Positions 1,234 through 3,540 of a stretch of 64,000 nucleotides of DNA are shown in pieces. The notes under the pieces were generated by a model. The model ran no database searches, was not told the DNA's origin, and saw only the letters and a list, made by a program, of their open reading frames with translations. The position numbers and the translations under genes are program-made. Each line of letters begins with the position of its first letter. The first letter of the stretch is position 1. Source of the DNA: Microvirga sp. ACRRW (lineage in GTDB: Bacteria; Pseudomonadota; Alphaproteobacteria; Rhizobiales; Beijerinckiaceae); assembly GCF_022346925.1 (NCBI RefSeq), contig NZ_JAKRNJ010000001.1:620001-684000 (forward strand), given 5' to 3'.

Positions 1234-2313
1234 TTAATAGGCAGCGTGGCGGTTCAGCACCAGGGGCTGCCCCGCCGATGAGCGCATGGGTGCCGCAGGG
1301 GGCCTCGGCGGCGCGTAGGTCTGCTGGGGCACATAGGTTTGCTGAGGCGCTTGGCTGACATAGCCCGGAGGCGGCGGAGGCGTATAGAGCTCGGGAGCCG
1401 CGTTGCCGGAATACCCGGAATTGCCGGAATAGCGCGGCATAGCTGGAGGCGGCACGGGCGCGGCGACCACGGGCGGCGCCATGGGCGCTCCCATAGGCGC
1501 TCCCCTGGGGATATCCGCAGAATAGCCGGCATCCGCGCTCTCCGCAGGCACGTCCTGCTCCATCTCGGCGGAAGGCAGCTCGCTCTGGGCGCTCACGCTC
1601 TGGAGGATCTCGCGGCTCCGCTCGGGGTCGATTCGCGGCTCGAACTTGAGGATCGGTTTGCAGATGCGGCGGTCGCCGCGCGCATCGTGCCGCGCCAGAT
1701 CGATATGGAAATGATCGTAATGGAAGGCATCGGCGCCGGGGCCCAGCACCGTGTTGAAATAGCGGCAGGCTCCGACGAAAGCCTCGCGCAGGAAGTCCTG
1801 CTCGACGGGGCTTGCCTTCCAGCCTTTCACGACCGTGATCTCGCGCCCGTCGGCCAGGACGAACGCCATTACGTCGAGCGCATTGCCGAAGGAATGCTCG
1901 GAGAGCTTGGCGCCGCGCTGGTTGTTGCGCGGGCGGCAGGAATAGGAGCCCGCTTTGATGTCTACCAGCGGAACGCCGAAATACATCAGGGCAGCGGGCT
2001 TCACGATCTCGTCGAGCCAAGTATCGATGCGCGGAATGATCGGGCAGGCCAGGGTCACCTTGGATTTCAGGCCCACTTCGCCGTTGTTGAACGCGGCCAC
2101 TTTGAAGGGATATTCCATGCCACAGACGCCGGGGCCGTCGATCTTGGACGACATGGACATATAGGCGGAGGGTTGCACGAGGCGCTGTGCCAGGCAGGCT
2201 TCCTCAGCCTGCGCGCGCCAGGGTTCGCGCTGTTCGAAACGAAACAACCCGCAACCGGTCAAACCGAGCCCAACAAGCGATAGGGCAACAAACGCAACTA
2301 ACCCACGACGCAT
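1234..2313 (-). CDS. Extensin-like C-terminal domain lipoprotein (M15-like fold)
   Basis: An envelope lipoprotein: residues 1-21 form a lipoprotein signal with lipobox LTGC. The central 190 residues match the bacterial extensin-like C-terminal domain, related to zinc D-Ala-D-Ala peptidases: SEHSFGNALDV and HYDHFHIDL supply the His/Asp/His metal-binding pattern. Cysteines are spaced as in the family. The C-terminal 120 residues are low complexity, rich in Pro, Ala, Tyr and Gln, like a wall-spanning tail. Likely acts on or binds peptidoglycan, by family inference only. It is transcribed away from the CtrA-type box at 2490-2504, which might also affect it. Confidence 0.8.
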   Translation of the reverse strand: MRRGLVAFVALSLVGLGLTGCGLFRFEQREPWRAQAEEACLAQRLVQPSAYMSMSSKIDGPGVCGMEYPFKVAAFNNGEVGLKSKVTLACPIIPRIDTWLDEIVKPAALMYFGVPLVDIKAGSYSCRPRNNQRGAKLSEHSFGNALDVMAFVLADGREITVVKGWKASPVEQDFLREAFVGACRYFNTVLGPGADAFHYDHFHIDLARHDARGDRRICKPILKFEPRIDPERSREILQSVSAQSELPSAEMEQDVPAESADAGYSADIPRGAPMGAPMAPPVVAAPVPPPAMPRYSGNSGYSGNAAPELYTPPPPPGYVSQAPQQTYVPQQTYAPPRPPAAPMRSSAGQPLVLNRHAAY

Positions 2314-2609
2314 GGCTCGACCTTAGCCGGCCTCCGGTAAACATCCCGTCAACGCTCACCCCGCCCTTCGAATCGCCCCCTGGGTCGAGAGTGAGAAGCA
2401 AAACACCATGCTGGCGACGGGCGAACATGCAGGTCTTCAAAAATTTTCTGCTTTGATGGGCGCGTATCTTCCCTTGGCATGGCAAGGGGTTAACCATCTG
2501 TTAACCATGTTGGCGGCTTAATAGTAGTATTTATAAGGCTTTGCCCGGACTTTTCAGGCCGCCGCGCTTCTGGTACGTTCCCTATCTATTCAGACAGGGG
2601 ACCTTTTGC
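2314..2609. other. Intergenic region holding a divergent promoter zone
   Basis: About 296 bases without a large gene. The right part holds the CtrA-type box (2490-2504) followed by an AT-rich stretch with TAGTAT and TTATAA, plausible -10 elements for the small gene at 2610. Nothing coding was seen in the left part. Confidence 0.5.
2490..2504. promoter_or_regulatory. CtrA-type box, TTAA-N7-TTAA
   Basis: TTAACCATCTGTTAA is an exact TTAA-N7-TTAA match, inside two copies of GTTAACCAT repeated 11 bases (one helical turn) apart at 2489-2497 and 2500-2508. This is the known binding consensus for CtrA, the essential cell-cycle response regulator of Alphaproteobacteria. It lies about 105 bases before the small gene at 2610 and about 175 bases from the divergent extensin-like gene. 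Confidence 0.7.
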
Positions 2610-2711
2610 ATGTACCTGACGTCGAATTCCGATTGGACCGCCAAGCTCAACATTGCAGCGGCCTGCATTTCCTTCTCCTTCATTTGCGCGATCGTTGTCG
2701 GGATCGTCTAA
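2610..2711 (+). CDS. 33-residue membrane peptide
   Basis: An ATG preceded by AGGGG at eight-base spacing opens a 33-codon frame ending in TAA. The product starts with a short polar segment (MYLTSNSDWTAKLN) followed by about 19 hydrophobic residues ending at the C-terminus, so it looks like a single-pass inner-membrane peptide. A strong terminator hairpin follows 37 bases later, so this is a self-contained transcription unit with its own ribosome site, terminator and upstream CtrA-type box. I do not recognise the family; function unknown. Confidence 0.65.
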   Translation: MYLTSNSDWTAKLNIAAACISFSFICAIVVGIV

Positions 2712-2748
2712 GACGGCCCGTTCAAAGCAACCGAATTCCATTGTTCTC

Positions 2749-2776
2749 AACGCCGCCTCATTCGGGCGGCGTTTTT
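2749..2776 (+). terminator. Rho-independent terminator after the small membrane peptide
   Basis: AACGCCGCC pairs perfectly with GGCGGCGTT across a seven-base loop and is followed by a run of T. It closes the transcription unit of the gene at 2610-2711. Confidence 0.85.
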
Positions 2777-3012
2777 CATGTCACCGGGCACGGTTTGGGC
2801 GAGATGATCCAGGACATCACGTTGATCGCCATGTCGCATTGGGCGAGGCGCGGCCCGTCCGCCGTCTTCAGGCAGATCGTTTCGCCTTCCGCATAAAACC
2901 GGCCTTCGGCGCGGCAATAGCAATCGAGAGGATTGTGCCCGGGCGCCTGCGCCAGTTGGACGTTGGCGGGATCACCGGACATAAGAGCGAGAAAGACCAG
3001 GATGCCGGGCAT
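2776..3012 (-). CDS. Small secreted protein of unknown function
   Basis: A 78-residue protein with a short hydrophobic N-terminus (PGILVFLALMSGDPANVQLA) that may act as a signal peptide. It holds four cysteines, including a CYC and ICLK, so a disulfide-bonded periplasmic product is likely. The ATG is preceded by CGGAGG at good spacing. Family not recognised. It lies downstream of moaE on the same strand, separated by about 75 bases. Confidence 0.6.
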   Translation of the reverse strand: MPGILVFLALMSGDPANVQLAQAPGHNPLDCYCRAEGRFYAEGETICLKTADGPRLAQCDMAINVMSWIISPKPCPVT

Positions 3013-3087
3013 GGATGCCTCCGCTTGCGATCTTCAACGCTATGATCCTCCCGGCGGCAGACCGGGTCAAGAATGGCAAGCCGCCGA

Positions 3088-3540
3088 TCAGCTCCACCGC
3101 TCCATGGCGGCATCGTCCGCAGCTCTCGTCTCGACCCAGGCCCCGACCGTCCCGTCCGTCAGATGCTCGCGCTTCCAGAACGGGGCGCGGGTCTTCAGGT
3201 AATCCATCATGAAGGAAGCGGCCTCGAAGGCGGCGGCACGGTGAGCACTTGCCGCCAGCACGAGGACGATAGGCTCGCCGGGCCGGATCTGGCCGAAGCG
3301 GTGGATGATGGTGAGCCCCAACAGAGGCCAGCGCTCTTCTGCCTCTCGGGCGATGCGGGCCATCTCGGCCTCGGCCATGCCTGGATAATGCTCGAGCTCT
3401 AGGGCAGAGAGACGCCCCCCCTCGTCACGGCAGAAGCCGGTAAAGGCGATCGTGGCTCCAATGTCGCCGCGGCCTGAGATGAGAGCAGCCGTCTCGGCGG
3501 CGGTGTCGAAGGGCTCGGCCTGGATGCGGATGTCGGCCAT
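3088..3540 (-). CDS. moaE: Molybdopterin synthase catalytic subunit MoaE
   Basis: Large subunit of molybdopterin synthase, which inserts two sulfurs from MoaD thiocarboxylate into cyclic pyranopterin monophosphate to make the molybdenum cofactor dithiolene. The 150 residues match the family length and show the typical GATIAFTGFCRDE start, LELEHYPGMAE, a RFGQIRPGEPIVLV core, and FWKREH near the C-terminus, where the catalytic lysine sits. It follows moaD by six bases, in the order uvrC-pgsA-moaD-moaE that is common in Alphaproteobacteria. Confidence 0.95.
   Translation of the reverse strand: MADIRIQAEPFDTAAETAALISGRGDIGATIAFTGFCRDEGGRLSALELEHYPGMAEAEMARIAREAEERWPLLGLTIIHRFGQIRPGEPIVLVLAASAHRAAAFEAASFMMDYLKTRAPFWKREHLTDGTVGAWVETRAADDAAMERWS

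Follow-up and report, generated by a model that had tools for sequence, protein, structure and literature searches.

A short gene behind a CtrA-type box

What controls a gene of 33 codons that stands by itself between two oppositely oriented neighbors, and what might its product do? The question is raised by a locus in the 64-kb window (the whole stretch of DNA that was analysed), where an ORF for a predicted single-helix membrane peptide, reading MYLTSNSDWTAKLNIAAACISFSFICAIVVGIV, occupies positions 2610 to 2711 of the plus strand, stop codon included; the ORF list places it within a longer frame starting at a TTG at position 2541. It is preceded by the ribosome binding site AGGGG (2596 to 2600, plus strand), recognized from its sequence, and followed by an intrinsic terminator with a 10-bp stem and a T-run (2749 to 2773, plus strand; -17.9 kcal/mol, z -4.2). 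The original prediction of a 33-codon gene with ribosome binding site and terminator is thus borne out, the terminator being located slightly beyond the interval that it had covered. A terminator of like kind was found behind the peptide in 28 of 36 Microvirga loci, compared with 4 of 288 control windows. The peptide gene forms a unit by itself, having a promoter region and a terminator of its own. Its divergent neighbor (1234 to 2313, minus strand), an extensin-like gene (Extensin-like_C, PF06904), lies outside this unit; the convergent neighbor (2776 to 3012, minus strand) is a 78-codon ORF without a Pfam or NCBIfam family, which recurs beside the peptide gene in Microvirga as well as in some of the family's other genera.

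The promoter region contains the CtrA-type box TTAACCATCTGTTAA (2490 to 2504, plus strand), an exact fit to TTAA-N7-TTAA and the only one in the window (mean of shuffled sequences, 0.05). The box is enclosed by two direct copies of GTTAACCAT (2489 to 2497 and 2500 to 2508, together 2489 to 2508, plus strand) that are 11 nt apart; both the exact fit and the doubling of a nine-base element one helical turn apart were therefore described correctly. For the 19-mer TTAACCATNTGTTAACCAT, no second match with up to three mismatches was found in the window, and none in shuffled sequences. Closer to the gene are a possible -10 hexamer, TAGTAT (2525 to 2530, plus strand; 18 nt past the second TTAACC), and a putative core-promoter-like element matching a loose pattern, CTTTTC ... 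TGGTACGTT (2550 to 2579, plus strand).

Conservation of the box in Microvirga and the case for CtrA

A CtrA box by itself is not rare in this genome, with 24 exact sites in 3.94 Mb versus 13 for a control pattern read backward. The weight of the present box derives from its conservation: 30 of 36 Microvirga loci have an exact box in the 300 bp preceding the peptide (Markov control: mean 0.3 of 36, maximum 4), and the remaining six have no exact box. These 36 loci exclude genome G005 and locus L203; the latter is a further Microvirga locus, which was also dropped from the f1 counts given below, and has an exact box as well. Only a spacing of 7 is enriched; other spacings from 0 to 15 reach at most five loci, and the remaining 97,410 bases of the same loci contain no TTAA-Nx-TTAA at any of these spacings. 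Among the 30 loci, the distance from box to start codon is 138 to 143 nt in 19, 117 to 120 nt in 8 and 44 to 45 nt in 3. The box is also present at -118 to -122 in all three genomes of genus g157, and genus g168 has an exact copy in three of four genomes and one with a single mismatch in the fourth; the single g170 genome has no exact CtrA box. The original prediction had been staked on conservation of peptide and box in relatives, and both are kept across Microvirga, the box also in g157 and g168. As a side observation, L025, L028, L030 and L203 carry their exact box 43 to 45 nt before the start, at the position of the core-promoter-like element of the others, and have no exact distal box, a possible case of binding-site turnover.

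CtrA itself (NF045991, 424 bits, cut-off 350; 84% identical to Caulobacter CtrA) and CckA (NF046020 equivalog, 1168 bits, cut-off 1000) are both encoded in the genome. The identical 15-mer occurs just once elsewhere in the genome, 272 bp upstream of the first start codon of cckA (cckA, L265, 947 to 3487, minus strand; 15-mer, L005, 1501 to 1515). The available text of PMC9437464 gives the CtrA rule as TTAA-N7-TTAA and that of PMC7200025 a ChIP-seq motif of TTAA-N7-TTAAC; the portions available of PMC4433202 and PMC2877005 hold no usable box sequence. Literature searches retrieved no study joining CtrA, a TTAA box, a small protein and Rhizobiales, and nothing relevant on CtrA in Microvirga.

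The box might instead be bound by another AT-seeking regulator or be an AT-rich promoter element. Such a reading would suit the position of the box, which in most loci is away from the usual -35, and the fact that binding of CtrA is a prediction. We nevertheless consider it unlikely, because the enrichment is restricted to the very spacing of the published CtrA rule and the identical 15-mer stands in front of cckA.

In the classical layout of CtrA-activated promoters the box covers the -35 region. Since 18 nt separate the second TTAACC from TAGTAT, the box of the window would sit on the -35, and the exact arrangement TTAACC-N18-TAGTAT is found in 5 of 36 Microvirga loci, all from the window's own subclade. 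Nearer to the gene, a CTTYTCAG...TTTGATAG-like element is present in 31 of 36 loci (a loose pattern, counted with no control); where both occur, the box ends about 45 bp upstream of it. No consensus sigma-70 site was scored in the promoter region. In view of these two layouts, CtrA may activate or modulate the peptide gene. The locus resembles the known CtrA regulon of Alphaproteobacteria in the exact box, the conserved spacing and the presence of CtrA and CckA, but differs from it in that the target is a micropeptide without a named family, that its control by CtrA is predicted, and that in most loci the box precedes the core-promoter-like element instead of covering it.

Many Microvirga 5' leaders (e.g., those of L013, L016 and L026) have an insert of about 22 nt consisting of a G-run, a C-run and a G-run, whose C-run has two potential pairing partners, the first G-run and the ribosome binding site. 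A conserved RNA switch is not claimed, as RNAalifold on 14 leaders from the 19 loci of the 138- to 143-nt class yielded four pairs and no compensatory changes.

Spread of the peptide beyond the box

Within Microvirga the peptide was matched in 35 of 36 other genomes searched (E of 5.8e-5 or lower), the exception being G005 with no significant match, and all 26 named loci in which it was confirmed belong to Microvirga, the genus of the window. Its range is much wider: 39 of 149 genomes and 17 of 43 genera of the family (E of 0.01 or lower) and, with a 35-row model, 192 of 397 genomes and 76 of 142 genera of the order (E of 0.001 or lower). In a class-wide sample of 385 genomes, which includes at least four others from the window's order, the single match at E of 0.001 or lower was the window's own genome. 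The peptide has 33 residues in the window and mostly 23 to 30 elsewhere in the order. Pfam and NCBIfam matches stayed below the curated cut-offs, and no family could be assigned. The peptide thus represents an unnamed and order-restricted family, which adds an order-wide membrane micropeptide missing from both collections to the conserved small proteins. The original prediction is partly supported; what it missed is that the peptide extends far beyond the CtrA box and is preceded by a PhaR-type operator in many other families.

Orthology of the distant peptides is supported by a shared gene order. Among 40 loci from the order (L100 to L139), convergent downstream genes are metF in 21, metH in 20 and an ArsR-methyltransferase gene in 19; none of the 33 f1 loci, which are all the non-Microvirga matches of the within-family search, has them. 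An amidase gene is located upstream and co-directional in 9 of the 40 and 17 of the 33 loci, i.e., in 26 of 26 where it was found, and an extensin gene is divergent in 8 and 20, respectively (28 of 28). By tblastn count, no best amidase or extensin match had the other orientation. Some of this linkage may simply be an old arrangement that was retained, with no functional reason behind it.

A PhaR-type operator in other families

The 40 loci were chosen by hand for family spread, not at random, from 113 non-own genomes with a match. None has an exact CtrA box. The motif YGCRNYGCA occurs within 200 bp upstream in 27 of them, versus 145 of 2507 control windows, and at -105 to -75 in 20, versus 154 of 16,180 windows. 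At the latter position, permuted motifs reached a mean of 0.23 of 40 and a maximum of 9, with none of 300 attaining 20; Markov sequences over the 200 bp gave a mean of 3 and a maximum of 8 of 40. A further 20 loci, likewise selected and not random, from the order-wide matches, have the site in 18 cases within 200 bp and in 14 at -105 to -75, figures with no separate control. For the f1 loci the values are 12 and 10 of 33, respectively, 21 being without the site. Eight of eight added f24 genomes carry CGCA[AT]TGCAGCA at -80 to -83. The 13 of 40 loci lacking the site belong to f20 (6 of 6), f2 (3 of 7), f11 (2 of 5), f35 (1 of 3) and f52 (1 of 1), and two added f36 genomes have the peptide with no such site in 200 bp. 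In Microvirga the site is found in 0 of 36 loci at -105 to -75 and in 2 of 36 within 200 bp, the window's own not among them.

The motif corresponds to the PhaR/AniA operator reported for Bradyrhizobium diazoefficiens, TGCRNYGCASMA (PMC6201568), and for Sinorhizobium meliloti, YGCRNYGCRN (PMC12542648), as given in the accessible parts of these papers. Their accessible tables list annotated genes, and no entry was matched to the peptide. Searches for PhaR or Hyphomicrobiales together with small ORFs gave nothing relevant among the matches listed. The genome of the window also encodes PhaR. One of its five phasin matches carries a PhaR-type site immediately ahead of the earliest possible start codon; in the stretch examined, the remaining four and phaR have none. 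In comparison with the known PhaR/AniA regulon, operator-like sites of the same form precede the peptide in many other families and in S. meliloti, whereas the site is absent from the peptide promoter of Microvirga. Small PhaR-repressed ORFs of B. diazoefficiens (bsr4236 and others) were considered as orthologues.

The motif is short and is missing from 13 of the 40 loci, including all six of f20, which could indicate that it is a by-product of promoter composition and that no regulator was swapped. Composition is an improbable explanation, however, for a motif found in half of the loci at one position, where about 1% of the control windows and a fraction of one locus for permuted motifs were obtained, and for the recurrence of the f24 sequence in every added genome within 4 nt. 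An operator of PhaR type remains our preferred reading.

The box follows the peptide, not the extensin-like gene

In Microvirga the box is located between two divergent genes, and it might belong to the extensin-like gene, with the peptide as a bystander. The original prediction had likewise drawn this neighbor into the picture, as a wall-related gene diverging from the same region. In line with such a reading, the distance from the box to the inferred extensin start is alike (171 to 197 nt) in 17 of 28 loci measured, the full range being 135 to 972 nt. Where the extensin gene is displaced to 500, 635 or 972 nt from the box, however, the box is still 142 to 143 nt from the peptide. In g157 and g168 the extensin gene is 1.6 to 2.7 kb away, and the box (exact or with one mismatch) is kept at -118 to -122 of the peptide. 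Moreover, the gene preceding the peptide in the three displayed g168 loci encodes an amidase (PF01425 in the one locus scanned); it is co-directional with the peptide and its end lies about 165 nt away, so that the box there serves no divergent gene. Ownership by the extensin gene is consequently very improbable, and an extensin-linked control was set aside on the basis of box distances and gene order in the sister genera, as the box tracks the peptide more closely. The wall connection hinted at in the original prediction thus finds no support.

Farther along the minus strand lie a ribonuclease T2 gene (PF00445; 37 to 717) and an ORF of 163 codons (696 to 1187) that has no Pfam family. Of the 26 named Microvirga loci, 25 show both next to the extensin gene; the remaining one is truncated by the end of its contig.

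Nature of the peptide

The peptide is under purifying selection. Its ORF has 33 codons in 35 of 36 loci compared (the window's own and 35 others), and the 36th also reaches 33 via an upstream ATG; start codons of the orthologues were chosen by script. Usable dS values were obtained for 480 of 595 pairs, with a median NG86 dN/dS of 0.17; at codon positions 1, 2 and 3 the sequences differ pairwise by 0.25, 0.15 and 0.47 on average (35 sequences, without L041), compared with 0.65 to 0.70 in ungapped flanks. AlphaFold2 (21 rows) predicts one helix from residue 3 to 32 (mean pLDDT 84, pTM 0.40), and the 19-residue hydropathy maximum of 2.68 covers residues 15 to 33. Phe24, Ala27 and Gly31 are invariant in the 35-row alignment and mark a conserved helix face. 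We infer insertion into the membrane; with Lys12 ahead of the hydrophobic part and no charge behind it, an N-in, C-out orientation is likely. Single-pass small membrane regulators such as CydX, KdpF and AcrZ are similar in having one helix of about 25 to 35 residues and a short gene of their own, but the present peptide has no sequence family match and no partner operon.

Size, the single hydrophobic helix and the private terminator are also what one would expect of a type I toxin, i.e., a tiny hydrophobic peptide restrained by an antisense RNA. Such modules are typically mobile, unlike near-universal genes. The peptide is near-universal in its genus, has a conserved gene order and occurs as one match per genome (in 113 of 114 matched genomes of one search and in 191 of 192 of another); Rfam revealed no antitoxin RNA family at 2200 to 3100, one match being far under its cut-off. 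We consider a toxin very improbable. Very improbable, too, is a leader or non-coding transcript with no translated peptide, which would fit an ORF with neither a Pfam or NCBIfam family nor proteomic support here but conflicts with the low dN/dS, the most variable third positions and the fixed length, and which, given the terminator directly behind and the convergent next gene, would have nothing to lead.

A proposed exchange of the regulator

In a UvrC tree of 30 genomes, Microvirga groups with g170, g157 and g168 (support 100/99); the tree represents one gene with long branches, and the position of genus g155 in it is unsure. All three g155 genomes have a PhaR-type site at -84/-85 together with a one-mismatch CtrA box at -121/-122. 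Boxes with up to one mismatch are also found at -149 to -105 in 3 of the 40 other-family loci and in three unrelated-looking f1 loci (L180, L188 and L191). Because such boxes occur elsewhere and the three g155 genomes are closely related to one another, the g155 box by itself is weak, and g155 is suggestive only of an intermediate with both operators. The simplest reading of the promoters, and a likely one, is that a CtrA box was gained at about -120 and the PhaR-type site was lost.

The gene, its selection and conservation, both motifs and both regulators in the genome were established by computation; binding of CtrA, binding of PhaR and the swap are proposed as follows. The product would be a single-pass inner-membrane micropeptide. 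In Microvirga and two sister genera, CtrA would bind the box, mostly about 105 to 145 nt before the start, and time transcription; in many other families a PhaR-type operator about 75 to 105 nt before the start codon would take its place, and accumulation of polyhydroxybutyrate, by titrating PhaR, would relieve the orthologue of repression. The regulator would hence have been exchanged from carbon storage (PhaR) to the cell cycle (CtrA) with the peptide retained. Partner binding in the membrane is a common fate of such peptides, and this one, at a guess, probably sits at the side of a larger inner-membrane protein as a small subunit or regulator and contacts it via the conserved helix face. 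Taken as a whole, a CtrA-timed membrane micropeptide with a PhaR-to-CtrA swap and a partner-binding helix appears to us reasonably probable. The broader idea, in which the peptide is an effector in the membrane linking carbon storage with growth or division through two interchangeable inputs, is more tentative, and we give it somewhat less than even weight. The locus offers a bioinformatic case of regulator replacement, PhaR type to CtrA type, at one orthologous promoter.

A candidate in Sinorhizobium meliloti

In S. meliloti Ak57 (CP090106.1, L286, 6001 to 6078), a 25-codon candidate orthologue is flanked by a DMT transporter gene and metF and has CGCAGTGCAGCA 80 nt ahead of its start. No gene is listed at the site in a gene table that is itself incomplete. 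The record has 3.7 Mb and is labeled pSymB, yet is chromosome-sized. The plasmid collection gave six weak matches, all with E of at least 0.7, and the S. meliloti tblastn E-value is 2; the ORF was accepted because of gene order and operator, not score. The resulting prediction for a model organism is that the 25-codon ORF beside metF would be PhaR controlled.

The single paper retrieved for SEP6 in S. meliloti describes, in the part available, a protein of fewer than 30 amino acids with a predicted transmembrane helix that is conserved in Hyphomicrobiales and was found in the P100 fraction (PMC10117765). Size class, transmembrane helix and taxonomic range, compared by description only, fit the 25-codon candidate, and SEP6 may be the S. 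meliloti orthologue of the peptide. In that case translation of a family member would already have been demonstrated, and only the control by CtrA or PhaR would be new.
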